IMG/VR virus record: IMGVR_UViG_3300009001_000091
Span: 1-24,528 of that record
Length of the DNA stretch: 24,528 nucleotides
Direction: 5' to 3' (one strand)
Origin: a virus
The notes beneath the pieces are model-generated. The model was not told the origin of the DNA, made no database searches, and worked only from the letters and a program-made list of their open reading frames with translations. This document shows, piece by piece, positions 1 through 14,682 of the stretch (positions are counted from its first letter, which is position 1; every line of letters begins with the position of its first letter). Both the position numbers and the translations under genes were made by a program.

Positions 1-1092
1 ACCGCGACTGAAATGGCCTCCACCCCATACAGAAGTATAGAATGTATTATCACCAGAAGCAACTGCTAATAAGTAGCCTTCACCTGGGATTGACTTATGA
101 TCGGTCCATGAATCTCTCGGTGCATTTGGTTTCTCTTTAGAAGTATCTGAAATATAGAAAATAAGAGTGTCAGCTTGCTTGTTTTTGTAAGCTGTTTGAG
201 GATCCATTGTCAAAAGATCTTCATCTTCAATTAGATCCATTTTTACTTTAGCTGTACCATAAAATGCTTTAGCTAAATTTTTATCTATTTTTCCACCGCG
301 TTTTGTAAATAAACTAGCGAATAGACTAGACTTAAACGCTTCGTTTAATGAAATAGATTCAATGAATGTTGAGAACGATTCATGTAAGAAAGTCTCTTTT
401 ACTTCTTCTCCCTCTTCAATTTTCGGAGCGTCCTTAACTGTTACTGGGTAAGTTTTACCGTCAAATTCAAATTCAGTCTTACCTTCTTGTTTAGCTTTAG
501 TTGCAGCCGCCACAAATTTACGACCTTCTTCTAAAGTTTCAGTTTCAGTTACACTAATAGTGTTAAAGATTTTTCTACCATATTTAGAAAGTGAAACACC
601 ATCTTCAGATACGTTAAAGTATCTTGCGTTTCTTCTAGCCCATCTGCCAGAATCTTTTGACATCTCTCTTACCAAGTTATCAAACTCTTCTTTAGTCAAT
701 TTACCATCAGCAATAGCTTCTAGCACTTTGTTTCTAATAGAAGCGTGCATTCCAGCTGTCATTGCTGGGTGGTTTTCAGTGTATTTTCTTTTGATCACAA
801 TTCTTGATTCGTTAACATTAGCTGACTCTTCGATGTATTCAGCTAAACCCGGATCGTCCCATCCATATACGCTATCAGCTAAAACTCTTTCAAGATCTTT
901 TCTCTTTCCTTGCATCGTAATAACAGGGTGACCTCCTGCTGGGCCGTCCATCATGGTATCAATAATCTCAACCTTATTCTTTTTTAAAAACTTTAAAAAG
1001 TCTTTATCTTCTGGATTCATTGCGTCCATTTCAACCGTAGCCTCGTTAACTGGCTTAGCATTGACGTTGATAAATTCTTGGAATTTTTTCAT
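1..1092 (-). CDS. Unknown T4-type phage protein with capsid-targeting-like N-terminus (3'-truncated by window)
   Basis: The frame opens at ATG 1092 and runs without a stop to base 1, giving 364 visible residues; the C-terminus lies outside the window. I recognise no enzymatic domain. The first residues, MKKFQEFINV, closely resemble the capsid-targeting peptide of T4 internal proteins (MKTYQEFIAEA, recalled from literature). V-N-E|A occurs at residues 15-18. A second similar segment, FSTFIESISLNEAF, lies at residues 240-253, with L-N-E|A matching the prohead-protease consensus. Residues 100-160 are basic and helical-looking, and the visible end is glycine and aromatic rich (WGGGHFSRG). The leader is A-rich with no clear Shine-Dalgarno. 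It is last of four consecutive genes that share such peptides, so I infer a packaged head protein; the function is unknown. The reading frame is certain, the role is not. Confidence 0.8.
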   Translation of the reverse strand, partial: MKKFQEFINVNAKPVNEATVEMDAMNPEDKDFLKFLKKNKVEIIDTMMDGPAGGHPVITMQGKRKDLERVLADSVYGWDDPGLAEYIEESANVNESRIVIKRKYTENHPAMTAGMHASIRNKVLEAIADGKLTKEEFDNLVREMSKDSGRWARRNARYFNVSEDGVSLSKYGRKIFNTISVTETETLEEGRKFVAAATKAKQEGKTEFEFDGKTYPVTVKDAPKIEEGEEVKETFLHESFSTFIESISLNEAFKSSLFASLFTKRGGKIDKNLAKAFYGTAKVKMDLIEDEDLLTMDPQTAYKNKQADTLIFYISDTSKEKPNAPRDSWTDHKSIPGEGYLLAVASGDNTFYTSVWGGGHFSRG

Positions 1093-1129: not shown

Positions 1130-2977
1130 TTAGAGTTTAGTGATAAACTGTTCAAACGTCATTAAATGACTCTCTGCAGTAACACCCATCGATGCCTCTA
1201 ATTTTTCTTTTAGCTCAGTGTACATGCCGTGAATTGGCTTTGGTGTTAGTTTCTTAAACAGTTTTTCGTCACCGTCTAACATTGCGTTTCTAACTTGTGT
1301 TGCTGAAATGTTTTTACCAGTTCTTGGTATTTCAAATAGTCCAAAATCTGTTCTAACTCCAAGATCTTCTCTATATTCTGGATTATCTACTTGAAAGCCA
1401 TAACTCTTCATTCTATCTGTTCCTGTACCCCAAAGTACTGGCTCGTAACCATCGCTTCTCATTGCATTAAACATATGATCGATACCGGCTGTCGGTAATA
1501 TGTAAACCTTCTCAATTGGATACTTTGACTTTAATCTATCAAGCATTGCCATTTGCGTATCTTCATCATAAGGTCTTTTAAACGCATCTTCTGGTTTTTT
1601 AGACTTTGACTTGATCAAGAGGATTACCACTGGATAGCCATTTTGTTTGTGAATAGTTTCAATAACTTTAGCGTGGCCCAATGTAAACGGTTGGAAACGT
1701 CCAACAAACATATTTACTGGAGTTTCGCCTTGTTCTGGGTAATTCACAGTTAAGGCTTCCATAATTGGACTAACTTCGCCCTTAAGTTTTTGATTTAGTA
1801 GGTATCTTTTAAAATCCATAACGTCTTGTTCGTTTGTTTTGCTCATTACAATAGCTTCGATCTCTTCGACGTTATCGTTGATCTGTGCCATTAAGTCAGC
1901 GTTAATTATATCTGTTTCTTTGGTTCTCTTTTTTCTAAATGATCCTAGTGCTATTTTAAATAGTTCAGCTAAGACTTTATTTTGAACCAATGAAAGTGTT
2001 TTTTCACTTCTAATATATGCAGTGTTAAGTTCAAATCCTGGAGCAGCTGCAAATTCAGCTGAATCAAAATCAGCGCCAATATATTTTGAAGCATTCTTTT
2101 CTACGTATGCATTAAAGACCGCTGAGATTAATTCAATATATCTTAGATCAGCATCTTCTTCTTTAAGTTGAATACTATTTAGATCAAAACCATCTAAAAA
2201 TTCAACTAGATCTAAAATAGAAATTTGATACATGTCAGATGGTTGTCTATCTTCTTGTTTTGCTCTATCAAATCTTTCTAATTTAAAACTTTTTGGATTG
2301 CGACCTTCGTAGAAATTAAGGATTAAACTATCAATAGGTTTATCAAGATCTGTGTTAAGTGCAGTTTTTGATAGACCATTATTAAAGATATTGTAAATCT
2401 TTCTAGTAAAACTTTCGTTTTTAAACTTAGTACCAAACGCTTCGATACTTAATTGCAACAAGTCAATCAATTCTTGTTTTTGATGTGATTGTAATTGGCC
2501 TTCAAATACAATAGGTGTCTCTTGTACGTCTAACTTGTTGGCCCACTTTTTTAAGATTTGTGGATCTCTAATTACTCTTTTAATTTGAGTAGGATTAGCT
2601 GGATTTAAAACTTGAATATGTGTAAGAATTAGATTATTCTTTGGTAATAAATCATACTCAATATCAATGGTTTTTTTATCAACCATATAGTCAAATCCGA
2701 ATTTCCAATCAGAAGGCATTTCTTCAACAACTTCTTTTAAGAGTGTGTTAAAGTGTTTAATTCCGTTTTCGTAGTATTTTACTAAGGTACGATCTACCTT
2801 ATTCATAGCAACCTTTGAACCACTCTTGAAAAACTCAACCGTGCCATCAGCTTCTCTTTTAACATGGAAGCTTGATGCCTGTACTTTTTCAGTTACAACA
2901 CAAGTTTGTTTTAATAACTCTTGAAAGTCATTAATATTAGTAGATTCGAAATATGTTTTTAGGTTTTGTAATGCCAT
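1130..2977 (-). CDS. RNA-ligase-like / NMN adenylyltransferase (NadM-like) fusion protein
   Basis: This 615-aa protein appears bifunctional. The N-terminal part (about residues 25-235) fits the nucleotidyltransferase fold of RNA ligases. EKVQASSF (30-37) aligns with motif I of T4 Rnl2 (EKIHGTNF), making K31 the likely AMP-accepting lysine. FGFDYM (93-98) fits motif III, and DSLIL (216-220) with SFKL (230-233) fit motifs IV and V, although motif I has A for G and motif IV D for E. Residues 240-410 are a helical linker. Residues 421-570 form a HIGH-type nucleotidylyltransferase with GRFQPFTLGH (426-435) and ISATQVR (557-563), typical of NadM enzymes that make NAD from NMN and ATP. The protein ends LMTFEQFITKL, a capsid-targeting-like peptide at the C-terminus; LKTYFES is at residues 6-12. 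The NadM-type domain is well supported. Ligase activity is inferred, and nucleotide substrates other than NMN remain possible. Confidence 0.85.
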   Translation of the reverse strand: MALQNLKTYFESTNINDFQELLKQTCVVTEKVQASSFHVKREADGTVEFFKSGSKVAMNKVDRTLVKYYENGIKHFNTLLKEVVEEMPSDWKFGFDYMVDKKTIDIEYDLLPKNNLILTHIQVLNPANPTQIKRVIRDPQILKKWANKLDVQETPIVFEGQLQSHQKQELIDLLQLSIEAFGTKFKNESFTRKIYNIFNNGLSKTALNTDLDKPIDSLILNFYEGRNPKSFKLERFDRAKQEDRQPSDMYQISILDLVEFLDGFDLNSIQLKEEDADLRYIELISAVFNAYVEKNASKYIGADFDSAEFAAAPGFELNTAYIRSEKTLSLVQNKVLAELFKIALGSFRKKRTKETDIINADLMAQINDNVEEIEAIVMSKTNEQDVMDFKRYLLNQKLKGEVSPIMEALTVNYPEQGETPVNMFVGRFQPFTLGHAKVIETIHKQNGYPVVILLIKSKSKKPEDAFKRPYDEDTQMAMLDRLKSKYPIEKVYILPTAGIDHMFNAMRSDGYEPVLWGTGTDRMKSYGFQVDNPEYREDLGVRTDFGLFEIPRTGKNISATQVRNAMLDGDEKLFKKLTPKPIHGMYTELKEKLEASMGVTAESHLMTFEQFITKL

Positions 2978-2992
2978 ATTATAGTATTTATC
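2978..2992 (-). promoter_or_regulatory. Possible T4-late-like promoter element
   Basis: Read on the minus strand, the bases before ATG 2977 are GATAAATACTATAAT. They match the extended T4 late promoter TATAAATACTATT at 11 of 13 positions. The element overlaps the TAA stop of the upstream gene. With T4 spacing, transcription would start about 2 nt before the ATG, giving an almost leaderless message. A shorter version (TAAATACTAAT) precedes the gene starting at 13867. In AT-rich DNA this could arise by chance. Confidence 0.3.
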
Positions 2993-4274
2993 GTCCGTAC
3001 TTAATGATACCCATGAGCTGATTAATTGCAGCGAATGTACCCGTTAGTTTAAATGTTTTACCTTTGTAAACAAAAACGATACCTTCGGTTGGCACAATAG
3101 ATTCAATGCCACCAATTCTTTCGAGTCTGGCTAATTCAGCTTCAACTTTAGTGATTTGATCAACAGAACCGCCTTTTTTAATTTTATCAGCCTCAGTTCT
3201 AATTTGATTATGCAGTCTTTGCATCTCAGCGTCTGGGTTGGCAGCAACAAAGTTACTTGCATTCTTTAAAATTACAGAACCTAGTTCTAAGAATAGATCT
3301 TCAAATGGTCTAATGTTTTCTTTATACTTTTTCTTAGAGTCCTCTTTATCAAACTTTCTAATGGCTTCCATTTGTTCTGGAGTTACCTCTTTCGCAAGTG
3401 CTCTCATGTTTAGAGTCTTCTTGTCTTCATATGCCCATCTAAGTAATAAACCCTCTTTGTGATCTTGAGTTAAATCACCGAAAGCTTTTTCGATTTCTTC
3501 TCTCCACCACATTTCGTGATAGCGACTAACTTCGTCAGCGTCTGTTAAATTATATCTTGTTCTAAGTGCTTCAACTTGTTTTAAGAATTTGGCTTTGTTC
3601 TTTTCAAAATCAATATCTTTGCCAAGTTTAATAATTTGTGGGGGAATTATTGTAAAGGTTTTACCAACGTTTGCTTTAACAGACTCTAATGCTTTTGCTA
3701 TTATTGCGGCAGGTTTACTGTCTTCTGCAATTATATTACCATTACCATCCGTCTTTTTTATACCATGAAATTGAATAACATCTCTATCGTAATAGATTAC
3801 GTTTGGATTTTTAGAATAGATCAATTCCATATTCATCCAATTAAGGCCGTTTTCAAACGTTTCTTGTTGAACTTTAGCTGGTAATTTAATTAGTGCATTG
3901 GCTAAATCTTCTGCGGCAAACTTAAAAGTTTCTTCAACCATTGCAGATGCATGGCCGTCGAATTTTTGTTTAAATGTTGGAAGATCCATTGGATTTATAA
4001 GTTCACCTTTATTACGAGCAAACTTAACTTCACCATCTTGAATAGTTGCAAATACATTTTGGCCATCTGTTTTTTCAGTAGCATCCTCTTCAAAGTTTAG
4101 TTCTCCACTAAGACCAGCTTCAATTAAGTTTTTAAAGTCTCCAAATGTTAGTGATTTATCATCGAATGGGTGTGACATGTGACCTGCAGCCCCACCTTCC
4201 ATGATCAATTCAGTGCCAGAATGCGAATTGAATTTCTCTGTTAAGAATTCTGTATATGTAAGTATTTTAGCCAT
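2988..4274 (-). CDS. KxDG ligase-like nucleotidyltransferase, predicted capsid-packaged
   Basis: I place the start at ATG 4274 (428 aa). The frame could extend to a TTG at 4313, but that stretch encodes an RNA hairpin, and MAKILTYTEFLTEK is a typical beginning. Residues 4-12 (ILTYTEFLT) resemble the T4 capsid-targeting peptide. I-M-E|G at 24-27 fits the prohead-protease consensus, and cleavage would leave GGAAGHMSHPFDD as the mature end. Ligase-superfamily motifs follow: K68-T-D-G (motif I, likely adenylated lysine), RNKGE (87-91), NMELIY (148-153, motif III), EGIVFVY (397-403, motif IV) and KTFKL (406-410, motif V). About 240 residues, rich in charged helices, separate motifs III and IV, unusually many. 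I recall similar proteins with a GGAAGH start in T4-like marine phages, annotated as ligases or hypotheticals. Nucleic acid end-joining is inferred; the substrate is unknown. Confidence 0.8.
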   Translation of the reverse strand: MAKILTYTEFLTEKFNSHSGTELIMEGGAAGHMSHPFDDKSLTFGDFKNLIEAGLSGELNFEEDATEKTDGQNVFATIQDGEVKFARNKGELINPMDLPTFKQKFDGHASAMVEETFKFAAEDLANALIKLPAKVQQETFENGLNWMNMELIYSKNPNVIYYDRDVIQFHGIKKTDGNGNIIAEDSKPAAIIAKALESVKANVGKTFTIIPPQIIKLGKDIDFEKNKAKFLKQVEALRTRYNLTDADEVSRYHEMWWREEIEKAFGDLTQDHKEGLLLRWAYEDKKTLNMRALAKEVTPEQMEAIRKFDKEDSKKKYKENIRPFEDLFLELGSVILKNASNFVAANPDAEMQRLHNQIRTEADKIKKGGSVDQITKVEAELARLERIGGIESIVPTEGIVFVYKGKTFKLTGTFAAINQLMGIIKYGR

Positions 4275-4287
4275 AATGGTATGAATA

Positions 4288-4316
4288 AGATTGGCCCAGA
4301 AAAACTGAGCCAATCT
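4288..4316 (-). terminator. Intergenic 12-bp hairpin (terminator or processing signal)
   Basis: The arms are AGATTGGCTCAG and CTGGGCCAATCT on the minus strand, around a loop of five T. All 12 positions pair in minus-strand RNA (one G-U). The plus-strand transcript would have a C-A mismatch, so the structure favours minus-strand RNA. It lies 12 nt after the stop of the 423-aa gene and 13 nt before ATG 4274. The bases after the stem (TATTCATACC) are not a clean T-run, so it may attenuate, stabilise or mark processing rather than terminate fully. Confidence 0.55.
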
Positions 4317-4327
4317 CTATGTTTATA

Positions 4328-5599
4328 TTAACCTAATGAAGATTGTAATGCTCCTACCATTGCGCCATAATCTCCTTCGTGTTTAGAGATTAGTCCGTCT
4401 ACAACTTCTTGAGCTTTAGCTTCGTCAAAATCTTCGCCGAAAGCTTTTTGTAAAACTGAGAATGCATACTCTTTAAAGTCTTCATCTGATTTTACTTCAG
4501 CTTCATCCAATTTAACAAAGTATTCATATAGCTTTTCTTCAACGTTAACCGTTACGGCATTACCTTCAAACTGTGCATTGAATTTATCCATTAGATCTTG
4601 ACCCATTTGAGCAAATCCAAGCTGTTCTAAGAAAAGCGCAGTACCTTCAACAATTGCAAGACCTGACCAACCAGCTGCATTTGAAAGTCTAGAGTAATAA
4701 TCTTCTAAAGCCGCTTTAATTCTAGTAGCACCAATATTAACTGCCATTCCACCTAAACCATCAACGATTACTGGAATTGAAGCAATGTTACCTTTGATTG
4801 CAGTTGCACATGCATCTTTTTCTCTGTGGAAATTAGCATCTTCCATTGCATCTACGAATAGCTTCTTAACTGCACCTAAAATGGTTTTTTCATCACCTGA
4901 TGCACCAATACCACTTAGTTCGCCCATTAAAATTTTATTGTATTGAGTAACTACCTTTTTAGCATCTCTTTTACCTGTAACTTTAATAGCTTCATTAACT
5001 ACAGATTCGAAAGCTGGTCTTAATTGACCACCACCATAAAGGTCTGCCATCATCCACTCTTTAGATCTTTCGTCCCAAAGGTAAACATATTCTGCGCCCC
5101 AATCGTTTGCTGCAGTTCTAACGTATCTGTCAAATGATTTAACGTTACCATTAAGTTGATCATCTTCACCATAGAAGTTCATTGAATCTGGATCCGCTTC
5201 CAAACCTGATGAATTACCACCTTGTAGGACAGCGTCAACGTTTTGGCCTTTCATGTAACCTTTTTTGATCAAGGGTAACATGTTCTCTGGATATGAATCG
5301 TAGTGAGTGTAAACTGAAACAATATTTCCTTTTTTGTCAATCTTACCGAATTGGCCTCTTGTACCCTCGTTAAGTTGCATAAAAGACTCATTCATTTCAA
5401 CACCTCTAAGTCTTTCGAAGAATTCTGATCTCTGTTCTTCAGTCAACTCTTTAACCGATGTTACGTCAAATTCTGCTAAAAGTGTTTTAAACGTTTCAGC
5501 CTCGTTTTGTCTCTTGTTGTTGTTCTGTTCTTGCACTTCGATTTTGTTAGCTTCTGTTTTAGCTACAACGAATTGCTCGAATGACTTTAATTTTTCCAT
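4328..5599 (-). CDS. Unknown DSYP-domain protein with capsid-targeting-like N-terminus
   Basis: This 423-aa protein starts MEKLKSFEQFVVAKTEA. The segment KLKSFEQFV resembles the targeting peptide of T4 internal head proteins. L76-N-E|G79 fits the prohead-protease consensus, so a propeptide of about 78 residues, rich in E, Q and N, could be removed. Just after it, residues 80-200 hold a domain with SVYTHYDSYPENMLPLIKK, LQGGNSSGL, YVYLWDERSKEWMMADLYGG. I recall this type (D-S/G-Y-P, then L-GG/GD-S) in many phage proteins of unknown function. The C-terminal half is helical, with a small-residue segment (ASIPVIVDGLGGMAVNIG) and an acidic end. It is the first of the four-gene left block. The leader is A-rich and lacks a clear Shine-Dalgarno. 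I infer a packaged head protein; the biochemical role is unknown. Confidence 0.85.
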   Translation of the reverse strand: MEKLKSFEQFVVAKTEANKIEVQEQNNNKRQNEAETFKTLLAEFDVTSVKELTEEQRSEFFERLRGVEMNESFMQLNEGTRGQFGKIDKKGNIVSVYTHYDSYPENMLPLIKKGYMKGQNVDAVLQGGNSSGLEADPDSMNFYGEDDQLNGNVKSFDRYVRTAANDWGAEYVYLWDERSKEWMMADLYGGGQLRPAFESVVNEAIKVTGKRDAKKVVTQYNKILMGELSGIGASGDEKTILGAVKKLFVDAMEDANFHREKDACATAIKGNIASIPVIVDGLGGMAVNIGATRIKAALEDYYSRLSNAAGWSGLAIVEGTALFLEQLGFAQMGQDLMDKFNAQFEGNAVTVNVEEKLYEYFVKLDEAEVKSDEDFKEYAFSVLQKAFGEDFDEAKAQEVVDGLISKHEGDYGAMVGALQSSLG

Positions 5600-5637: not shown

Positions 5638-7146
5638 TTATATATCTCCTTCAAAACTGACATTTTTTACATCAAACGAGAACTTTTGCTCTCTATAGAT
5701 GGCTTGGCGAGCTTTAGCATGTCTAATTAGGTAGTTATCCCAATCTGATGAGCTTAAATCGTCTACAAAATCAATAATGTTTACCGCATCTTTTGATGCA
5801 TGTTGTCTCAATCCACGACCAATTGATTGACGAATAATCACCTCTGATTTGAATGATTCAGTAAAGAAAATGTTGTGAATCTTCTTAATCGAAATACCCG
5901 TTGAGAAGGTACCATAACTAGCCACGATTACGACTTCTTCGCCGGCTTCCATCTTTTTTTTGTATTCTTCGCGAATGTCTTTGTCAGTTCCACCATCAAC
6001 ATAAAATACACGCTTATTACTTTCTTGTCTAAGCGTTTCGTATAACTTTTTACCGTGCTCAATCCTGTGGAAAAGAACAAGACTATTGCCTCGTACTCTG
6101 GAAATAACATTAGTAACGAAGTTGAGACGGCCTGGCGAATTGATGATATAGTTTTGTTCGAACTTAAATACGTCTTTGCTTTCATATCTGTTTTGTGACA
6201 TTTCTCTAAATGCATCTTTAGTACTTTGTGGAGCATAATCCATCTTAATTACTTTTACTTTACATTTAGCAATGTGTCCTTCATTTTGTAAGAAATTAGC
6301 TGAAACCTCAGTAATCACGGGGCCAGTGTAGGCCATTAGAGTTAATCGATCTAGTGTGCCGGGTTTTGGGATTGTACCTGATAAACCATAACGATAATCG
6401 GCATTGACGCATTTCTGAAGGATGGTCTTGATCGATTGTGATTTAGCTTTATGTGTTTCGTCAATAATAACAGCGTCAAACTGTTCAAAATAGGCTTTGT
6501 CTTTTTTGACCAGAGATTGATAAGTACCAATTACTACGTTGCGACCTGCTCTGATCTTTTGGCCACTATAAATTTGTTGTACCTTAATGTCGACTTGATT
6601 TCTGTAATTATAGTCTAAGAAATCCTCACTGGCTTGTACTACAAGTGATACATTAGGTACGATAAACAGAATGCGTTCAGCTTTCTTCTGTTCTAATATA
6701 TATGCGACTGTAAGGAAGGAAATTAACGTTTTACCTGCTGAAGTCGCCAATTCGCTCAAACACCTCTTAAATTTTAAGATGTTAAAAGCAGCGTCAATTT
6801 GATAATCTCTTGGTGTAATCTCAGACTTTTCAAAGAAGTCCAATGCCCACTGAGTAAACTTTTCTTGATTGATCCCAGTGTCAAATAGCTCAGTAATACC
6901 ATTTAACTTGAGTTCATAATTATATTCTTTGCAAATGTTCATCACTTCTCGCCAAAGACCAGAAGGAATCCATTTGTCATCCTTAATGTAGGAGATGTAA
7001 CCGTCCCATAAACCCTTCTTTACAAGTGGGTTAAATCGCCAAGATTCAATCCGCCTGTTCAGAGAAATGTTAAGCTGCTCAAGCTCCATCTCAGTTGCAT
7101 CGTCAATTCGTAGCAACTGTTTATTTTCTGTCAAACTAAGCTCCAC
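5638..7146 (-). CDS. uvsW: UvsW-type ATP-dependent DNA/RNA helicase
   Basis: This 502-aa superfamily 2 helicase is close in length to T4 UvsW, which unwinds branched DNA and R-loops and promotes branch migration when replication switches from origin- to recombination-dependent initiation. Motifs in order: TPRDYQIDAA (111-120, Q-like motif), ATSAGKT (134-140, Walker A), VIIDETHK (226-233, DExH), LSGTIPK (255-261, motif III), LVLFHRIEHGKKL (357-369), ASYGTFSTGISI (409-420, motif V) and RQSIGRGLRQ (439-448, motif VI with arginine fingers). Residues 1-105 match the position of the UvsW N-terminal DNA-binding domain. The start appears to be GTG 7146: an ATG two bases upstream in another frame stops after five codons, and no in-frame ATG exists after the upstream stop. 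It follows uvsY by 27 nt, the classic recombination pairing. Confidence 0.93.
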   Translation of the reverse strand: MELSLTENKQLLRIDDATEMELEQLNISLNRRIESWRFNPLVKKGLWDGYISYIKDDKWIPSGLWREVMNICKEYNYELKLNGITELFDTGINQEKFTQWALDFFEKSEITPRDYQIDAAFNILKFKRCLSELATSAGKTLISFLTVAYILEQKKAERILFIVPNVSLVVQASEDFLDYNYRNQVDIKVQQIYSGQKIRAGRNVVIGTYQSLVKKDKAYFEQFDAVIIDETHKAKSQSIKTILQKCVNADYRYGLSGTIPKPGTLDRLTLMAYTGPVITEVSANFLQNEGHIAKCKVKVIKMDYAPQSTKDAFREMSQNRYESKDVFKFEQNYIINSPGRLNFVTNVISRVRGNSLVLFHRIEHGKKLYETLRQESNKRVFYVDGGTDKDIREEYKKKMEAGEEVVIVASYGTFSTGISIKKIHNIFFTESFKSEVIIRQSIGRGLRQHASKDAVNIIDFVDDLSSSDWDNYLIRHAKARQAIYREQKFSFDVKNVSFEGDI

Positions 7147-7173
7147 ATTTTTGCGGGCTTTTTTATTTTCAGC

Positions 7174-7596
7174 TTACAGATCTTTTATTGCCAATCTGTT
7201 TCTGACGGCAAAGCCCATGTTATCTAGAGTCTTTACCGATTCTCTCATAAATTCAACTTGATTTTCTAAGAGAGCTAGTCTGGTATTTTCTTGAACAAGA
7301 TCGTTTTCTATAAACCTTTCTTTTTGTTTTTCACCTAGTTTATAGTCGTATTCATAATACCTAATATAGGCTTCTCGCCACCTTGCATTGATCGCATTTT
7401 TTTGCTCCTTAATTTTTGTATTAAGATATGCCATTTGATCAACCATTGTTTGACGTGAAGACAAAATCCCGGCTATAGTCTCTTCCATACCGTTAATATG
7501 TTTAAGACTTTGAGCCAGTTCCTTTATGTTGTTAGACCAAGTGGTCCTTTGTGTAGTGAGCTTTTGATCAAGCTCAAGTATTTTCTCGTTACTCAT
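7174..7596 (-). CDS. uvsY: UvsY-like recombination mediator protein
   Basis: This 140-aa helical protein matches the size of T4 UvsY (137 aa), which loads UvsX recombinase onto gp32-coated ssDNA. The C-terminal pattern agrees with UvsY: a basic helix with AINARWREAYIRYY (69-82), then KERFIENDL, then LLENQVEFMRESVKTLDNMGFAVRN, comparable to the T4 segment ending in DAIKSRGFAIKH. The N-terminal half is coiled-coil-like. No other domain is visible and there are no cysteines. It sits between uvsW and the gp61/gp32 genes, fitting a mediator role; UvsY contacts gp32 and UvsX in T4. The assignment rests on size, pattern and context. I rate it likely but not certain, because UvsY diverges quickly. 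Confidence 0.7.
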   Translation of the reverse strand: MSNEKILELDQKLTTQRTTWSNNIKELAQSLKHINGMEETIAGILSSRQTMVDQMAYLNTKIKEQKNAINARWREAYIRYYEYDYKLGEKQKERFIENDLVQENTRLALLENQVEFMRESVKTLDNMGFAVRNRLAIKDL

Positions 7597-7605
7597 TTAT
7601 ATCTT

Positions 7606-7827
7606 TTAAAACAGTGACTTCTTATTAGGGTTTGGTTTGATATGCTTTGAAATAATCTCACGCTTCTTAAACTTAGGCTTACCCATTTTCATTTCAGGAG
7701 TATTAGCCTCGAGATCAATGCTATCAAAGTCAACCAACATTTTTAGACCCTTAAATCTATCTCTGTCATTGTAAAAATCATCTAAGTCCTTTTCAACCAT
7801 AACTGTTAAATCTTCTATACGTACCAT
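7606..7827 (-). CDS. Small unknown protein between primase and uvsY
   Basis: This gene encodes 73 aa. The first half is acidic (RIEDLTVMVEKDLDDFYNDRDRF) and the last 25 residues are strongly basic (KPKFKKREIISKHIKPNPNKK). I do not recognise a family. The start MVRIEDL resembles the start of T4 UvsY (MRLEDL), but the rest does not follow. Its ATG lies inside the end of the primase gene (13-nt overlap), and its stop is 9 nt before the uvsY start, so it is probably translationally coupled within the replication operon. A small adaptor or nucleic-acid-binding accessory is possible, but this is a guess from charge and place. Confidence 0.75.
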   Translation of the reverse strand: MVRIEDLTVMVEKDLDDFYNDRDRFKGLKMLVDFDSIDLEANTPEMKMGKPKFKKREIISKHIKPNPNKKSLF

Positions 7828-8891
7828 AGATCTAATTTACTTGAAGTGAAATAATCATTAATCTTCTTATAAGCATCTGATTTTAATTCATAACACTTAA
7901 TCATCAAGTCATTTAGATCTTTGATATTATATTTATCTAACCCATTTTCTTGTAAGAACTTAGACCACATAAAGACGGGTCGGCCACGTTTGAGTTTCTC
8001 AGTCATTTTAGCCTTACCAGTTTTATCATTATCAAACATATATCTAACTGTCTCGATTTCGTCAAACTCCTCAGTTGAGCGACCAGCTGTTGAAAGTGCC
8101 AATGAGTTATGCATAAATTTAGCATCTAATGGTCCTTCAAATAGTGTCACTGGCCTTTGAAAGTTGATATGCATAATACCAAAAAGAGTTGAGATCTTTG
8201 TAATACTATTAAGCTCATCTTCTGATATTTCAAGAGGTTGACCCATTTCTTCGTAGAGTTTAGGTAAATCATATGATAAGTATCGCTGACCATATCCTTT
8301 CATTCTACGTGTTTGTGCTCCAATAATTTTACCTTCTGCACCAAAGTTAAGAATCCATAAGCGATGCTCTTTGGCTGAATATAAAAACTCATCTACTTTA
8401 TGGTGTAAAAGGCGATCTTTAAGTTGAAACCAAATCCAATCTCCAGGTTCTATAGGCTTGGCTTTAAACTTAGCTTTAAAAGTTTCAATATCAATCGCAT
8501 ATTTTTGTACCTTCTCAAAAACAGTTGGCTGTAGAACGCTTTCGCTACTAACTTCAATTTTGTTTTGTTGAATGTAATCAATAATTGTAAAGGTATCCTC
8601 GCCGGTCGAGAACCTAATTTGATGATCCTTTAAAAAAGAGTGGAGATTTGTGTGGTAACTACAGTTGTAACAGTGATACTGTAGGGTATCCCAAAAGATA
8701 TTGCCACGTTTTTTAGTGTCATCTTTATGGGAATCACCACAATAGGGACATGCAAGGGTTATTCGCCCATGCATGTCCTTTAGTGATTGCTTATTTGGAT
8801 TTGTATGTTCTTGTTGTACTACTTGTTTAAGTGCAACTCGAATTTTATCCTTAAGCTCCTCTGTTAGTTTTATATTAGATGTCGAGGTCAT
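7815..8891 (-). CDS. 61: DNA primase (T4 gp61 type)
   Basis: This 358-aa protein matches T4 gp61 (342 aa), the primase that makes RNA primers for lagging-strand synthesis with the gp41 helicase. The N-terminal zinc-binding domain shows CPYCGDSHKDDTKKRG (48-63) and HCYNCSYH (73-80), nearly as in T4 (CPVCGDS...HCYNCNYH). The Toprim catalytic core is visible as FEGPLDAKF (251-259, conserved glutamate) and MFDNDKTG (285-292, DxD metal site). MWSKF and KDLNDLM (324-330) fit the C-terminal pattern of T4 gp61. Its ATG overlaps the end of the gp32 gene by 17 nt, suggesting coupled expression of primase with the ssDNA-binding protein. No key residue appears to be missing. Confidence 0.95.
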   Translation of the reverse strand: MTSTSNIKLTEELKDKIRVALKQVVQQEHTNPNKQSLKDMHGRITLACPYCGDSHKDDTKKRGNIFWDTLQYHCYNCSYHTNLHSFLKDHQIRFSTGEDTFTIIDYIQQNKIEVSSESVLQPTVFEKVQKYAIDIETFKAKFKAKPIEPGDWIWFQLKDRLLHHKVDEFLYSAKEHRLWILNFGAEGKIIGAQTRRMKGYGQRYLSYDLPKLYEEMGQPLEISEDELNSITKISTLFGIMHINFQRPVTLFEGPLDAKFMHNSLALSTAGRSTEEFDEIETVRYMFDNDKTGKAKMTEKLKRGRPVFMWSKFLQENGLDKYNIKDLNDLMIKCYELKSDAYKKINDYFTSSKLDLWYV

Positions 8892-9792
8892 TCAAGAAAG
8901 AATCTAGATCATCGTCACTTGAAACGCTTGATGAAGTTGAAGATTCTGTTGAAGAGGCCTCTTTCTCAACTACAGTTGTCGCAGCTACTGCTTCTTTTTT
9001 AGGTGCAGCTTTTGGTGCACTTGTTACTGCAGCGATTGAATCACCTGGATTGAGGTACATACGAAGTACATCGTTTACGAATGCACGAGTATCCTCGTCC
9101 CAAGCTTTGTAATCGTAACTTGCCAATGAAGGTGCAGCATCAAGTTCTTCTTTGATTGTAGCCATTGATTCTTTGCTACGCTCTGCTGGAGTTTCACCGA
9201 TTAAGATAGCTGATTTGCTAGCTGAGAATTTAGATTTGTCATAGTTGTTGTATTCACCTTGACGAGTGATGATCAACTCAAAGTTCTTACCTTCGAAAAG
9301 GTCAAATACTTGTGTTGGCTCACCGAAGTCTGGCTTCAACTCAGCGTCGATCTTCTCTTTGATCTTGTAACCAAACTTAAAGACCATATACTTACCTTCC
9401 AATTCTGGATTTTGTGGATCTTTAATGATTTTGATTAGAGAATAGTACTGCTGACGTCTCTTAAGTTTTTCTGAAGCCTTACGGTCTACAGCTGAGTCGC
9501 TTTTACGCAACTTCCAGAATACGTCTGCAATTGGACACTTTTCACCGATTGAAGATGGTGAATCTACCAATTTACCGTCACCGCTTGAATTTGTCAACCA
9601 GTGTACGTACTTTTGAATAAGAGAATTACGTGGATTCTCTGGGTTTGGAACGAAGCGAATCAACGCTTTGTAAGTTCCGTCTTTACCATCGTCAGCGGTC
9701 GGCTTATAGATCTCGCTTACTGATGTTTGTTGGGGCTGATGCGTTTCAACGTCTTCTACGCCCAAGTTAAAAATGTCAAAATTTTCACTCAT
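8875..9792 (-). CDS. 32: Single-stranded DNA-binding protein (T4 gp32 type)
   Basis: This 305-aa protein matches T4 gp32 (301 aa). It coats ssDNA during replication, recombination and repair and recruits partners through its acidic tail. Features shared with T4: the start of the OB-fold core (YKALIRFVPN, 41-50), KIIKDPQNPELEGKYMVFKFG (121-141), NYDKSKF (183-189), a Ser/Ala-rich linker, and the end SSDDDLDSFLNDLDI, nearly identical in style to the T4 tail. The zinc-finger region differs: H64 and C86 remain, but the other two T4 cysteines are replaced (V76/D77 and A89), and C86 is the only cysteine I see, so zinc binding is probably lost. AAGG lies 4 nt before the ATG, and the leader carries operator-like repeats, so autoregulation is likely. 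Confidence 0.95.
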   Translation of the reverse strand: MSENFDIFNLGVEDVETHQPQQTSVSEIYKPTADDGKDGTYKALIRFVPNPENPRNSLIQKYVHWLTNSSGDGKLVDSPSSIGEKCPIADVFWKLRKSDSAVDRKASEKLKRRQQYYSLIKIIKDPQNPELEGKYMVFKFGYKIKEKIDAELKPDFGEPTQVFDLFEGKNFELIITRQGEYNNYDKSKFSASKSAILIGETPAERSKESMATIKEELDAAPSLASYDYKAWDEDTRAFVNDVLRMYLNPGDSIAAVTSAPKAAPKKEAVAATTVVEKEASSTESSTSSSVSSDDDLDSFLNDLDI

Positions 9793-9796
9793 GATA

Positions 9797-9843
9797 CCTT
9801 AAAATTGTTTAAAAATGTTTAATACTTGAAATTTACTTTCAGT
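9797..9843 (-). promoter_or_regulatory. Putative gp32 autogenous translational operator
   Basis: In minus-strand order, a hairpin comes first: ACTGAAA, loop GTAAA, then TTTCAAGT (7 bp, one bulged A; 9824-9843). Next is an unstructured A/T stretch with three TTAAA/TTTAA repeats (ATTAAACA, TTTTTAAACA, ATTTTAAGG), ending in AAGG just before ATG 9792. T4 gp32 represses its own translation by nucleating at a folded leader element (a pseudoknot) and spreading over UUAAA repeats that cover the ribosome site. The arrangement here is the same, although I see only a hairpin and no proven pseudoknot. Confidence 0.55.
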
Positions 9844-9874
9844 CCTTATAATCGCAACTAAACAAATGTTTCAC

Positions 9875-10214: not shown

Positions 10215-10868
10215 TTAGGCTGGGGGGTTGGACATATATGCCACTAAGAAGTAAGCATCGATAAGGTCATCTAAAGGCTTCGGGATCTTCTTCCCGATTT
10301 CCAAACCACTCACAATATTCCACAACGGGCTTTTAGCCAAGATGAGGTCTTCCGTCGAATTCTTTTGAAAAGCCTCAAACAACTGAAGCTTGTTCATATT
10401 ACCTTTACCGGCATATTTCTTAATAGTGGTTGGAGCGACTGTGACCAAGTTTTCGGGCTTTAAGGTCTTTAACATCTTCAACTTGAGAATGGCGGCACCT
10501 GCGGCCATGTCTATCATATTATTAGTTCCCATCTTAGAACCATATGAAGTGCCCTCAAACCCAATTATAAAACCATCACCAACAAAAACTTCTTGTAAAA
10601 TTAGATTGATAATGTCATCGGCCATTCGATCATATCTTTTGACCTTAGCTAATTCAACACTTGAATATTCTTCAGCCTCTCTATTAAAATCAGGTTGATC
10701 AACAAGTGTTACATCTTGAAGAAGTCCAAGTTCTTCCTGTAATTTTTGTTCAGCTTTAGTACCTGTTTTAGGTTTTATGTAACTGATGAAATGGTATCGT
10801 TTACTCTTATCATTGTAAACACATATACCGGGGGAATTTAGGGAAAAGTCTACCGAAACGTAGTTCAT
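10215..10868 (-). CDS. RuvC-like Holliday-junction resolvase / RNase H-fold nuclease
   Basis: This 217-aa protein has the acidic pattern of the RuvC family: VSVDFSLNSPGICVY (4-18, first aspartate D7 on strand 1), IIGFEGTSYGS (101-111, E105), and PLDDLIDAYFLVAY (198-211, D200/D201/D204). TVAPTTIKKYAGKGNMNK (143-160) fits the RuvC loop before the last acidic helix, which is usually P..(V/I)K....G.G.A.K. RuvC-like enzymes cut four-way junctions; T4 itself uses endonuclease VII (gp49), so this may be a replacement, as in other T4-like marine phages. Its ATG directly follows the stop of the 122-aa gene with no gap. An insertion of about 50 charged residues (35-85) separates the first two catalytic strands. 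Catalysis on junctions versus general RNA/DNA cleavage cannot be told from sequence. Confidence 0.75.
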   Translation of the reverse strand: MNYVSVDFSLNSPGICVYNDKSKRYHFISYIKPKTGTKAEQKLQEELGLLQDVTLVDQPDFNREAEEYSSVELAKVKRYDRMADDIINLILQEVFVGDGFIIGFEGTSYGSKMGTNNMIDMAAGAAILKLKMLKTLKPENLVTVAPTTIKKYAGKGNMNKLQLFEAFQKNSTEDLILAKSPLWNIVSGLEIGKKIPKPLDDLIDAYFLVAYMSNPPA

Positions 10869-11237
10869 TTACATTCTTTTACCAAGACTAGCACCTAAGG
10901 CAGCGCCAACAAGTCTTGAAGTTAACAAATCATAAAAAATACCCTTTTGAATACCGAGAACTCTAGCGATCATCTTACCAACTGATTTACCAAGTGCAAA
11001 GCCTGTCAAACCACCTAAGATACTACCTAAAAGACCTTCGTTCGTCATCTCTTCATTTAAGCGATCCATATCAAAAGTACCGTCTTCATTACCATACTCA
11101 GCAATAAATTGATCGATAGCTTCATCTACTTGAGCCTCTAATTCTGGAGTCCATTCAGATTGTAGACCTTCTTTAAGCATACCCATATCCTGATCGGTCA
11201 CTTTCTCTTCCAATAAGTATTTGTTAAATGTCTTCAT
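10869..11237 (-). CDS. Small glycine-rich hydrophobic protein with capsid-targeting-like N-terminus
   Basis: This 122-aa protein starts MKTFNKYLLEEKV, very close to the T4 internal-protein targeting peptide. L21-K-E|G24 and T65-N-E|G68 resemble prohead-protease sites; the first fits the L/I-x-E rule. Residues 25-64 are acidic. Residues 68-118 are a Gly/Ala/Leu-rich hydrophobic segment with G-x-x-x-G spacing (GLLGSILGGLTGFALGKSVG and LVGAALGASLG), like glycine-zipper membrane proteins. I infer a head-packaged peptide that may act on membranes during DNA ejection; a small lysis or assembly protein is an alternative. It is separated from the other four genes with such peptides by the replication block and lies beside virion genes. 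Confidence 0.8.
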   Translation of the reverse strand: MKTFNKYLLEEKVTDQDMGMLKEGLQSEWTPELEAQVDEAIDQFIAEYGNEDGTFDMDRLNEEMTNEGLLGSILGGLTGFALGKSVGKMIARVLGIQKGIFYDLLTSRLVGAALGASLGKRM

Positions 11238-11247
11238 AATGTATATA

Positions 11248-11799
11248 TCATTGTAATTCTATTCTCAAGTCTAACTTATTATAGTAGAACGTGACTTCAA
11301 ATGTTGAGAAGTCTGCGACGTTCTCTGCAAAGTTAAGTGAGAGTTCGTTTATTGAGTTCATAATTGGTTTTTGAAATTCCATATAGGCAACTGAAGCACC
11401 CTCTGCATCTAGAATTCTCAAAGTTAATGGATCCGTATATGGTCTAGTAGTCGATCTAGCATAATAATACAATAGAGTATCCATCATAATCCAATAGTTA
11501 ATAAAACCATCGAGTAATTGCATAGTCACTGTAAACTGACGCTCAATCGTATTTTGAATAGGTTGAGTTCCTCTATGGTATCTAATAGATCCGTCATTAT
11601 CTGCTTGCTGTACTGGATCAAAGCTAACTCCTGGAATATTAACGCCCTGAATTGAATAGTTGACAAAATCAATCGGTTCAGCGAGCATAGACCCTGGAAC
11701 CTTGTCTAAATACTTTTTATATTTAGCGGCAACTTCTTCTGGAATAAACTTCCTAGGAAATCTAAAGTCAAATGAGTTATTTCTGCTATTTAAGATCAT
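11248..11799 (-). CDS. Tail-tube-fold virion protein (gp19/gp48/gp54-like)
   Basis: This 183-aa protein has the size and end pattern of T4 tail-tube-fold proteins. SIQGVNIPGVSF (48-59) resembles the inner-strand region seen in tube proteins. The C-terminal INELSLNFAENVADFSTFEVTFYYNK matches the last strands of T4 gp19 (VGELQLDW...TFEVTLALDYW). ERQFTVTMQLLDGFINYWIMMDTLLYYY corresponds to the strand-helix step at the centre of that fold. It could be the main tube protein or a tube-initiator/baseplate protein (gp48 or gp54 type). It begins 1 nt after the 688-aa structural gene. Basis: pattern recognition against remembered T4 gp19; moderate certainty. Confidence 0.6.
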   Translation of the reverse strand: MILNSRNNSFDFRFPRKFIPEEVAAKYKKYLDKVPGSMLAEPIDFVNYSIQGVNIPGVSFDPVQQADNDGSIRYHRGTQPIQNTIERQFTVTMQLLDGFINYWIMMDTLLYYYARSTTRPYTDPLTLRILDAEGASVAYMEFQKPIMNSINELSLNFAENVADFSTFEVTFYYNKLDLRIELQ

Positions 11800-11800
11800 C

Positions 11801-13867
11801 TTATGCTAGTGTGAATTTTCCAGAAGTAATGTAAGTTTGATCAATGCCATTATCAAGACTAATATAGAACTTAGTGTTCTGCATGCCTCTAATTTTATTA
11901 GCATTAGCTTCATTAATCTTAAATAGAACTTCACCCTCGCCCATATCGATGTCTTTATTAGAAACGTGATTAAATGTTAATTTATTATCACCTTGTCCAA
12001 ATGTTAAGATAACTCTTTCTGCATTTTCAAACGATACAAATTCAATATCACCATCCTTTTGTTTTGCAATCACAAATTTAAAATAAGCTGCAAATGGTGG
12101 AATCTTAATAGTCAAATCATTTTCATTTACAAAACCACTTGTTTCTACCTCAACGACATCTTGTGTCATTATGTTTTCATTTCCACTATCGAATGTTACG
12201 TTTGCAATACTTGCTACAACATTATGTCTTTCTAAAAATGCAGGTACATATTTAACACTACGTGGGACTGAGTCAGTAATAAGACTCTTAATCACTTTAT
12301 TACCACTTAAGTTAGGTAGAATATTATAAACTTCAGTCAATTGGTTTGGACTGTTAATCTTTAAAGCCGCTAATTTTTTACCGTACTTTGCAGCTTGATT
12401 CACAGTTAAACTGGCTCTCTTAACTATTTGAGTGTTGTCAGTTTGATTGTAAATTCTCATAGTTACATCAATTGAGAAATTGACTGCTACGTTAGCATTT
12501 CTAATTACTGGTCTATAAATAATAGGCTCATTAAAATCTTCGTATTGAGTAAATGTCAATTCGTTAGTTTTAACTTCACTTGTACCTATTTGTTCAAAGA
12601 CTGCAACATCAAAAATCACAACAATATCATCTGAGCTTGTTTGAATTCTGTTTAAAATATAACCTTCAAATGCACCAATAGAATTGTCTTTCTCACCGTA
12701 AATCATAAAGTAATCACCATCAGTGGCGTCTTCAACTATAACTGTAAAGTCTTGATATTCATCTTCACGTGAAACTGTAAAAGAGTTTTCTTCGCCGGTG
12801 TAGAAGTAATCAAATCCATTTAGGGTTTCAAGTCTATCGATCAATTTAAAGTTAATGCCGTAATTAGCAGATGGATCTAAATCACTTGAACCTATTGTAC
12901 CATTACCATAGAATCTATCAGTAAACTCTTCATTTTGACCAACCAAAGATGGCACTTTAACCTCGATAAATTTACTCCATAAAGTCTCACCTAAAATAAA
13001 TGGCTTTGGATTAGAGTATTCATAGTTACTAGTATTTAAGTAAGCTAATTGAGTTAAGTAGTTTTGAATGCCACTAGTTCTGCCTGCTGAAACCTCAAAT
13101 AAGAAACCTTCATAGCCTCTTGCAGCGAACGAAAATCCACTTTTTAAGTGAAGTCTAACCGTATCATATAAAATATAATTTACATTCTGAGTTGCTTCAG
13201 TTTGGTAATTAATTAGATCGGCTTCATTACCACCGGTCCAATTAGGGTGATTATTAATGTAGTTAAACATTTCATAATAACCAGTAGAATCATAGCCTAA
13301 AAGTGCATACTTGGTTCTTTCTCCTGGGACTCTAACACCATGATAACGACCAATTGTTTGGTTAATATCATTACCTGTATTTTCATCCGGTGAAGCGAAT
13401 AATGGATTAGCTCTAGTGTCAATAATAATCTTACCACCAATTAAACCAGGGTAAGAGTATTCAAGCGTACCATTTTGGCTTGGAATAAATTGACCAATTT
13501 GAGTGGCCGCTGAATAAGTGTAAATGCCCAAAGTTCCACTAATTGCAAATTGACTTGGATCTGCCAATGCACTTAGATCAAACTTATAAGTTTTACCATT
13601 TTGTAGAAGTAGTGTTCTTGCTGCAAAATTTTCAACAGCTAAATAACCTGCAGTCGAAGTAACATCAAAGTTAACAACATCACTGCCTAATTCATTAATT
13701 AAATGACGTTGAGAAAATGGATCACCATCAACTGTATCTAGAAACTTTACTTCACTACCATTATCATCTACTTCGATTTTATAAGCATCTGTGTTGCTTT
13801 GATCGTGGTAGATAAATTCGAGTAAAACATCCTCGTCTATCCTAAAAAATCTTGATGATTGTGCCAT
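11801..13867 (-). CDS. Large virion structural protein candidate, unknown
   Basis: This 688-aa protein is rich in Asn, Thr, Tyr, Phe and beta-strand-like segments, with no signal peptide, membrane segment or cysteine cluster. I do not recognise an enzyme motif. The start is MAQSSRFFRIDEDVLLEFIY. Composition and position between a tail-tube-fold gene and fibre genes indicate a virion (baseplate, neck or fibre-connecting) protein. Residues 375-500 and 545-688 look like Ig-like or jelly-roll beta domains. The last segment (KIRGMQNTKFYISLDNGIDQTYITSGKFTLA) is a typical beta end. The leader contains TAAATACTAAT. A T4 baseplate wedge analogue (gp7/gp8/gp10) is possible but cannot be shown from sequence alone. 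Confidence 0.8.
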   Translation of the reverse strand: MAQSSRFFRIDEDVLLEFIYHDQSNTDAYKIEVDDNGSEVKFLDTVDGDPFSQRHLINELGSDVVNFDVTSTAGYLAVENFAARTLLLQNGKTYKFDLSALADPSQFAISGTLGIYTYSAATQIGQFIPSQNGTLEYSYPGLIGGKIIIDTRANPLFASPDENTGNDINQTIGRYHGVRVPGERTKYALLGYDSTGYYEMFNYINNHPNWTGGNEADLINYQTEATQNVNYILYDTVRLHLKSGFSFAARGYEGFLFEVSAGRTSGIQNYLTQLAYLNTSNYEYSNPKPFILGETLWSKFIEVKVPSLVGQNEEFTDRFYGNGTIGSSDLDPSANYGINFKLIDRLETLNGFDYFYTGEENSFTVSREDEYQDFTVIVEDATDGDYFMIYGEKDNSIGAFEGYILNRIQTSSDDIVVIFDVAVFEQIGTSEVKTNELTFTQYEDFNEPIIYRPVIRNANVAVNFSIDVTMRIYNQTDNTQIVKRASLTVNQAAKYGKKLAALKINSPNQLTEVYNILPNLSGNKVIKSLITDSVPRSVKYVPAFLERHNVVASIANVTFDSGNENIMTQDVVEVETSGFVNENDLTIKIPPFAAYFKFVIAKQKDGDIEFVSFENAERVILTFGQGDNKLTFNHVSNKDIDMGEGEVLFKINEANANKIRGMQNTKFYISLDNGIDQTYITSGKFTLA

Positions 13868-13880
13868 ATTAGTATTTAGA
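13868..13880 (-). promoter_or_regulatory. Possible T4-late-like promoter element (weak)
   Basis: On the minus strand the bases before ATG 13867 are TCTAAATACTAAT, sharing TAAATACTA with the site before 2977 and with the T4 late consensus. It overlaps the TAA stop of the upstream gene. The shared stop codon explains part of the similarity, so support is weak. Confidence 0.2.
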
Positions 13881-14682
13881 ATCTCAAGAACTTAGGTGAC
13901 CAGTAAACTCCTATACCAATAGAAGGGCCAGTACTAATTACTTGATTATTGTTTAAGTTTATTCCATAACCTACGCCGATTCCAATAGACCAGCCGGCCT
14001 TTTTCTCGTTACGTTGGTTTAATTTAGTATTTATCAGGTTTATATTCTCTATGTTAGAGATATTCAAACCTGGATATGAAGTAGACAATTTAAGTCTATT
14101 AGCTCCATCAACTTCTTCAATGCCTGCAACTAATGAAAGTGTTTGATCAATATTAAATTGATTTAGTCCAGTAGTAAATAAGCCATTATCATAGTTAATA
14201 ATAGAATAGCCAGTTAAATTTCTAGTGTTACCGTTTCCAAAATCATCAAACTTACTAAAATCTATTCTTGCAGAATTAGAGTCAATTTGAGTTACTTGAG
14301 CTGCCGCTAATAAACTATCTTTAATTGCAATATCAGCTGAAAGTAAAGCATTTGTTTTGTTTAGATCACTATTAAGATTAAGTACTCTACGGTATTTAGC
14401 TAGTACCTTTTTTTGATCTTCTTTTAAATTATCAATATCAAACTCGTAACTTCTAATAGTAGCTAACATATCACCATTGTCGTTCTTTAACACGGTGACA
14501 CTGTCCTTAGATGCTAAATAATTATTAAAATTTCTATCAGCGTTTTCTTGAGCCAATTTTACATCAGATTTAAGATCTGAAATACGATCACACTGTCTTA
14601 AAAACAATAAAACAAAAAGAGCCCCTGCAATAAATACAATTGCATTCTTACTAAGTTTTATATTTTTAATTTTATCTAACAT
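13876..14682 (-). CDS. Membrane-anchored coiled-coil protein, possible spanin
   Basis: This 268-aa protein has a short basic N-terminus and then one membrane segment (about 14-29, AIVFIAGALFVLLFL), so the rest is probably periplasmic. Residues 32-125 are a long coiled coil (ISDLKSDVKLAQENADRNF to KTNALLSADIAIKDSLL). Residues 225-268 are two glycine-rich beta strands, GWSIGIGVGYGIN and GPSIGIGVYW, and the protein ends KFLRF, an aromatic end typical of outer-membrane strands. That is the layout expected of an i-spanin or a one-protein envelope-spanning lysis factor, here with an outer-membrane-like end instead of a lipoprotein partner. Similar N-anchored coiled-coil proteins occur in Bacteroidota phages. 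No lysin gene is nearby, so a tail or adsorption role is an alternative. Confidence 0.75.
   Translation of the reverse strand: MLDKIKNIKLSKNAIVFIAGALFVLLFLRQCDRISDLKSDVKLAQENADRNFNNYLASKDSVTVLKNDNGDMLATIRSYEFDIDNLKEDQKKVLAKYRRVLNLNSDLNKTNALLSADIAIKDSLLAAAQVTQIDSNSARIDFSKFDDFGNGNTRNLTGYSIINYDNGLFTTGLNQFNIDQTLSLVAGIEEVDGANRLKLSTSYPGLNISNIENINLINTKLNQRNEKKAGWSIGIGVGYGINLNNNQVISTGPSIGIGVYWSPKFLRF

Follow-up and report, generated by a model that had tools for sequence, protein, structure and literature searches.

The window analysed here, 24,528 nucleotides long (IMG/VR record IMGVR_UViG_3300009001_000091), comes from a marine T4-like phage. The gene order is UvsW, a 423-aa gene, a second ligase-fold gene (lig2), a gene for a fusion protein and a 364-aa gene, and lig2 accompanies the fusion gene at nearly every locus where the latter is found. 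The features of this part of the window are as follows.

1..1092, minus strand: syntenic neighbour, cut at the window end, with the tag-like start MKKFQEFINVN
1130..2977, minus strand: gene for the 615-aa fusion protein (N half with a ligase fold, C half of NMNAT type, tag at the C-terminus)
1142..1162, minus strand: capsid-targeting-like tag MTFEQFI (family LTF-x-QF) at the fusion C-terminus, in 76 of 77 tails
1193..1717, minus strand: HIGH-superfamily (NadM/NMNAT-type) adenylyltransferase domain, residues 421-595 (PF01467, TIGR01527, TIGR00125)
1289..1309, minus strand: ISATQVR motif, residues 557-563 (S558, A559 and R563 in 78 of 78 sequences)
1673..1702, minus strand: active-site motif GRFQPFTLGH, residues 426-435, nearly invariant
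1838..2977, minus strand: Rnl2-like nucleotidyltransferase domain and helical C domain, residues 1-380 (AlphaFold2; Foldseek to T4 Rnl2)
2867..2890, minus strand: motif I EKVQASSF including Lys31, residues 30-37 (K31 in 81 of 81 sequences of the window clade)
2988..4274, minus strand: lig2, second ligase-fold gene, 428 aa from MAKILTY (ligase motifs; Foldseek, Rnl1 2c5u, E 1.6e-3)
4062..4076, minus strand: lig2 motif I EKTDG (K68), invariant in alignment A3
4191..4205, minus strand: candidate prohead-protease site IME/GG in lig2, with predicted cleavage at the slash (E26-G27-G28 invariant in A3)
4236..4256, minus strand: capsid-targeting-like tag YTEFLTE at the lig2 N-terminus, in 78 of 80 family members
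4287..4317, minus strand: intergenic hairpin separating the 423-aa gene from lig2, perhaps a terminator (-20.8 kcal/mol, z -6.3)
4328..5599, minus strand: syntenic neighbour, 423 aa, with the tag-like start MEKLKSFEQFVVAKTE

The gene at 1..1092 has a weak PHROG match to an internal head protein (E 0.011). Elsewhere in the window, positions 15455-16783 encode collagen-like GxY repeats with PTPTATPT linkers, probably part of a fibre.

The original prediction placed an open reading frame at 1130-2977 and read it as an RNA-ligase-like domain joined to a NadM-type adenylyltransferase. The limits are exact, the strand is minus, and structure and profile searches agree with the pairing of an Rnl2-like fold and a NadM-type domain. 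The start codon is ATG, and M1-A2-L3 is invariant among relatives, so the annotated start can be taken as correct. Relatives of the fusion were confirmed by tblastn at no fewer than 104 IMG/VR loci, 80 of which were retrieved, the majority full length. Moreover, the 462 kb phage LR756500 encodes a full-length copy at 36% identity. With these 104 relatives and the LR756500 copy the fusion is real, and a chance joining of reading frames, an assembly artefact or a frame error can be discarded. The AlphaFold2 model (31-sequence alignment, mean pLDDT 83) is that of a true two-domain protein. The database relative A0A6J5NWC5 carries no assigned function, and PADLOC matched nothing relevant.

Comparison of the predicted N half with Rnl2, the check proposed with the original prediction, recovered a nucleotidyltransferase fold. 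The top Foldseek match in the PDB was T4 Rnl2 (2hvr, E 1.7e-8), and further top matches were 2hvq and 1s68, also T4 Rnl2, and the fungal Trl1 ligase; the model shows a covalent nucleotidyltransferase fold followed by a helical C domain. By sequence, PF09414 did not match the fusion at E<=1 in the Pfam search, PDB profile searches detected no ligase, and every profile library searched left the N half unnamed. Residues K31, K51, D96, D216 and K232 are each present in 81 of 81 close relatives, although only 64 of the 380 columns of the N half are invariant in this set. Placed by eye on T4 Rnl2, they fall at K35, R55, E99, E204 and K225, which we take to be the catalytic residues of that enzyme. 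The T4 sequence was taken from NC_000866.

The motifs are nevertheless altered. Instead of K-x-(D/H)-G, motif I reads KVQA, with the Lys retained and the Gly replaced by Ala (A34) in all 81 window-clade sequences; the missing glycine had been pointed out correctly at the outset. In the by-eye alignment, the Glu of motifs III and IV and the two Lys of motif V are represented by D96, D216 and K232; at position 234, where the second of these Lys would stand, most sequences have Glu. Distant relatives have the motif I Gly and have lost Lys31 instead. Lys31 is replaced by Asn or Asp in loci L001-L005; the residue is Asn in the full fusion of LR756500 and Asp or Asn in four distinct 600-740 kb phage genomes that carry the N half only. 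These changes suggest that the window-clade N half may be an altered enzyme and that the distant branches are probably pseudo-ligases. Catalysis by the N half is therefore uncertain. The Rnl2-fold half could be a pseudo-ligase, on which the NMNAT domain and lig2 would depend for structural support, RNA binding or regulation, and we give this nearly even chances. The Gly to Ala change, the two Glu to Asp changes, the lost second motif V Lys, the Asn or Asp at position 31 in L001-L005 and the adjoining, motif-intact lig2 would all fit such a role, but the invariance of all five residues in the window clade would be surprising for a dead site.

The C half was matched, alone, by PF01467 (HIGH/cytidylyltransferase-like superfamily) with 35.7 bits against a cut-off of 21, whereas the NadM equivalog TIGR01527 gave 33.6 bits against a cut-off of 181.2. 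The nearest NCBIfam equivalogs are NMNATs, and Foldseek against the PDB retrieved PPAT/NMNAT structures. The (H/T)xGH and ISxTxxR motifs of NadM are both present, as GRFQPFTLGH and ISATQVR, at residues 426-435 and 557-563, as the original prediction had read them. Its motifs and profile matches place the C half among the adenylyltransferases of the HIGH superfamily, nearest to NMNATs of the NadM type. Its specificity for NMN is less clear, since R507 would fall approximately at Trp87 of archaeal NMNAT, just before which the alignment stops. We take Trp87 to be the aromatic residue that stacks on NMN. The domain might thus adenylylate another acceptor (an RNA 5′ end, a protein or another mononucleotide) and make no NAD, a minority possibility with which the score far below the equivalog cut-off, the position of R507 and the constant pairing with ligase-fold proteins would be consistent. 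RNA capping by NMNAT has also been proposed, with E. coli NadD and NadR found inactive (PMC8131947). Against it, the top curated equivalog matches are NMNATs, and the GRFQPF and ISATxVR motifs are intact.

The lig2 motifs (EKTDGQN, RNKG, NMELI, TEGIVF, KGKTFKLTG) are mostly invariant. The model (pLDDT 83) has T4 Rnl1 (2c5u, E 1.6e-3) as its top Foldseek match, and other RNA ligases scored more weakly; lig2 is thus described here as a divergent ligase-fold protein. The strong hairpin at 4287-4317, just upstream of lig2, suggests that lig2 and the fusion gene may be transcribed separately. In L018 there are two lig2-fusion pairs (6704-9848 and 10783-13945), the second more divergent and downstream of the first, and both fusion copies retain Lys31 and the C-terminal tag. 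The common synteny and this duplicated pair indicate that lig2 and the fusion form one unit.

Ligase-fold and NMNAT-type proteins are paired in other phages as well. Microcystis phage Mel-JY01 encodes a single protein with an NMNAT-type domain and a lig2 relative. A scan with this protein identified 304 viral contigs, many of which code for giant proteins that end in lig2; several of these proteins also carry NMNAT and a zeta/AAA_33-type kinase, and those of L147 and L171 a Pol-beta-like segment too. Among marine giant proteins with a lig2 relative, an NMNAT domain is present in many of the full-length ones. In Vibrio and Campylobacter phages, a ligase domain with KxDG and an NMNAT form a single chain (21 records at >=80% coverage), annotated as hypothetical protein, in some cases with a nucleotidylyl transferase domain remark. 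A ligase-motif gene is found in 16 records of Stenotrophomonas phages, and it overlaps an NMNAT-type gene in the Stenotrophomonas (Menderavirus) records examined and in Xanthomonas phage X1. By hhalign, the NMNAT parts are plainly related to that of the fusion (98.6-99.3%), the Mel-type less so (81.5%). Between the ligase parts, for which the profiles were small, nothing was significant: the fusion against the Campylobacter/Vibrio proteins reached Prob 12% and E 0.0025, the others less. The ligase assignment is therefore based on structure and motifs. A search of viral contigs with the Vibrio ligase-NMNAT protein found no relatives. That phages unrelated to one another repeatedly fuse these two kinds of protein, or encode them side by side, supports a functional link between them, and it looks as though the same functional pair was assembled repeatedly.

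Two further observations concern these loci. Marine giant chains in L171 (1450-5061), L138 (950-4570) and L144 (347-5275), which start with MxKLTxWLxxPFLxE or similar, combine NMNAT-type and ligase-fold domains with AAA_33/zeta-type kinase, Zn_protease-like or Pol-beta-like domains, and are possibly polyvalent injected proteins. Upstream of the ligase/NMNAT pairs of Xanthomonas phage X1 (L087, 1128-2138) and Stenotrophomonas phage Mendera (L182, 2187-3107) lie genes with a GS...DxD pattern that resemble Pol-beta nucleotidyltransferases and are not recognised by Pfam.

Both members of the lig2-fusion unit carry a terminal motif reminiscent of the T4 capsid-targeting sequence (CTS). The tail of the fusion family is a near-invariant LTF(E/D)QF. 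The pattern [FY]xx[FY], chosen post hoc from these related sequences, occurs in 76 of 77 fusion tails against 8.6% expected from shuffling. The lig2 tag pattern, chosen in the same way, is shared by 78 of 80 members of its family, where shuffling predicts 1.1%. Across the region, the tag pattern was found in 0.5% of interior stretches and 19.6% of N-termini. It is absent from UvsW, primase, gp32 and a 140-aa protein, and the same tag-like start is present in a short gene at the position of T4 gp67/gp68, flanked by the portal and prohead protease genes. The T4 internal proteins start with MKTYQEFIAE (IPII and IPIII) and MKTFKEFTS (IPI; NC_000866). In the T4 CTS, residues 4 and 7 serve targeting and residues 8 and 10 processing (PMC9026906). 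A T4-type prohead protease (PF03420) is encoded by nine of nine long contigs, and residues 16-32 of lig2, which include the candidate cleavage site, are poorly ordered in the model. Where an (L/I)xE trimming site might be expected beside the fusion tag, about 77 sequences could be compared: 64 have E602 and 56 have S603, and the residues before them vary. A C-terminal propeptide has a precedent in T4 Alt, which gp21 trims at both ends, with LTE as the C-terminal site (PMC5694885). Finally, the cyanophage cytidylyltransferase T4-GC190, which starts with MKKFSAFLNEA in S-SM1, was detected in S-SM1 virions (PMC3037559), and the S-CREM2 cytidylyltransferase was also found in virions (PMC10665884).

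The tags, the protease in all nine contigs and the virion-located cyanophage homologues favour packaging in the phage head. The case is weakened by the C-terminal location of the fusion tag, unlike that of T4 internal proteins, by the lack of enrichment of the T4-type late promoter TATAAATA upstream, and by the loose conservation of the trimming sites. The fusion could instead be an unpackaged intracellular enzyme of NAD salvage or RNA repair, whose terminal motifs bind another phage protein. The gene adjoins UvsW, gp32 and primase, outside the head gene cluster, the late promoter signal was not found, and phage NMNATs are generally assigned to NAD salvage (PMC9503650). We consider this alternative unlikely, given the agreement of the motif with the key CTS positions 4, 7, 8 and 10 (PMC9026906), its absence from the replication proteins, its occurrence in the gene at the gp67/gp68 position, and the presence of a tagged NMNAT homologue in virions.

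Two features of related loci may be mentioned here. In L179 (9770-11974) and L180 (9459-11459) the prohead protease lies within a protein of 666-734 aa that also contains extended acidic and repetitive stretches and appears to join protease and scaffold in one chain. In L006-L085, several small variable genes with MKxxKLFEQFINE-like starts lie downstream of the fusion gene, as if they formed a cassette of differing head-packaged proteins.

NadV (PF04095) was found in two of nine long contigs, and KptA and NAD-dependent DNA ligase in none of the nine, which are possibly fragments; the search for ART (PF03496) gave no information, its control having matched nowhere. Every phage NadM is described as having NadV alongside it (PMC9503650), so its scarcity weakens NAD salvage alone as an explanation, and textbook NAD salvage or KptA-type repair is a poor fit to these possibly incomplete contigs.

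We favour, with confidence only slightly above even, a bifunctional or semi-degenerate nucleotidyltransferase of a T4-like phage that is carried inside the capsid and enters the host together with the genome. The LTFxQF tail of the fusion and the YTEFLTE motif of lig2 would dock on the prohead core like the T4 CTS, the T4-type protease would trim both tags, and the trimmed proteins would enter the cell with the phage DNA. There the HIGH domain, to judge from its family, would convert NMN (or a similar mononucleotide) and ATP to NAD+; with NadV mostly absent, NMN would need to be supplied by the host. Lig2, the likely working ligase-type enzyme, would repair or modify RNA ends, assisted by the Rnl2-fold half as a weak or slow enzyme or as a binding partner or platform, so that a pseudo-ligase N half is compatible with head packaging and injection. 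The cell would thereby be protected or reprogrammed ahead of phage gene expression. The LR756500 copy, which has neither the tail nor Lys31, weakens this explanation. A more speculative and rather improbable version is a coupled cycle, in which the injected ligase-fold enzyme takes AMP from NAD+ and frees NMN, from which the HIGH domain remakes NAD+, or in which the HIGH domain joins NMN to RNA 5′ ends after transcription.

These data suggest that a ligase-fold nucleotidyltransferase and an NMNAT-type enzyme occur as partners in many T4-like phages, and that some of these phages deliver the pair in the virion, active before phage gene expression. If so, NAD/RNA metabolism would join ARTs and anti-restriction proteins in the repertoire of injected proteins, and abundant phage genes annotated merely as 'cytitidyltransferase' would gain a testable function. 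Counterparts exist in the cultured phages Campylobacter CP220, Vibrio Va1 and Stenotrophomonas Mendera. No prior description of ligase-fold/NMNAT fusions was found in a literature search that covered phage RNA-repair papers incompletely.

Among known systems, T4 Rnl2 (PF09414) comes closest to the N half in structure, with the same order of nucleotidyltransferase and helical domains and a shared motif I, EK[IV]x[GA][ST][NS]F (EKIHGTNF in T4). The fusion differs in its missing PF09414 match, the Gly to Ala change in motif I, the Glu to Asp changes, the loss of one motif V Lys and the joining of the ligase fold to an adenylyltransferase. It resembles NadM (TIGR01527, PF01467) in fold and in the GRFQPFxxGH and ISxTxxR motifs, but departs from it in score (33.6 vs 181.2 bits) and in R507 near the Trp87 position, and from described phage NadM/NadR proteins in having neither their Nudix nor their kinase partner. 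The proteins of the Campylobacter CP220 group and of Vibrio pv27/Va1 (484-503 aa) likewise have a ligase-motif domain followed by NMNAT in one chain, and the fusion model matched a 484-aa viral model in Foldseek at E 2.4e-20; however, they have a canonical KxDG, a ligase part without homology detectable with small profiles, and no C-terminal LTFxQF tag. Phage polyvalent proteins (PMC5512222) also carry multiple enzyme domains per chain and are thought to be injected, but the ligase/NMNAT combination does not appear in the passages of that article consulted here. T4 IPI-III and Alt offer a CTS-like tag, a gp21-type protease in the genome and the precedent of trimming at both ends, whereas here the predicted cargo is a nucleotidyltransferase and the fusion tag is C-terminal. 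T4-GC190 ('cytitidyltransferase') is an NMNAT homologue with a CTS-like start and is located in virions, although its tag is N-terminal and no ligase domain was recognised in it. We would place the fusion, as a putative member, among the virion-associated phage nucleotidyltransferases.
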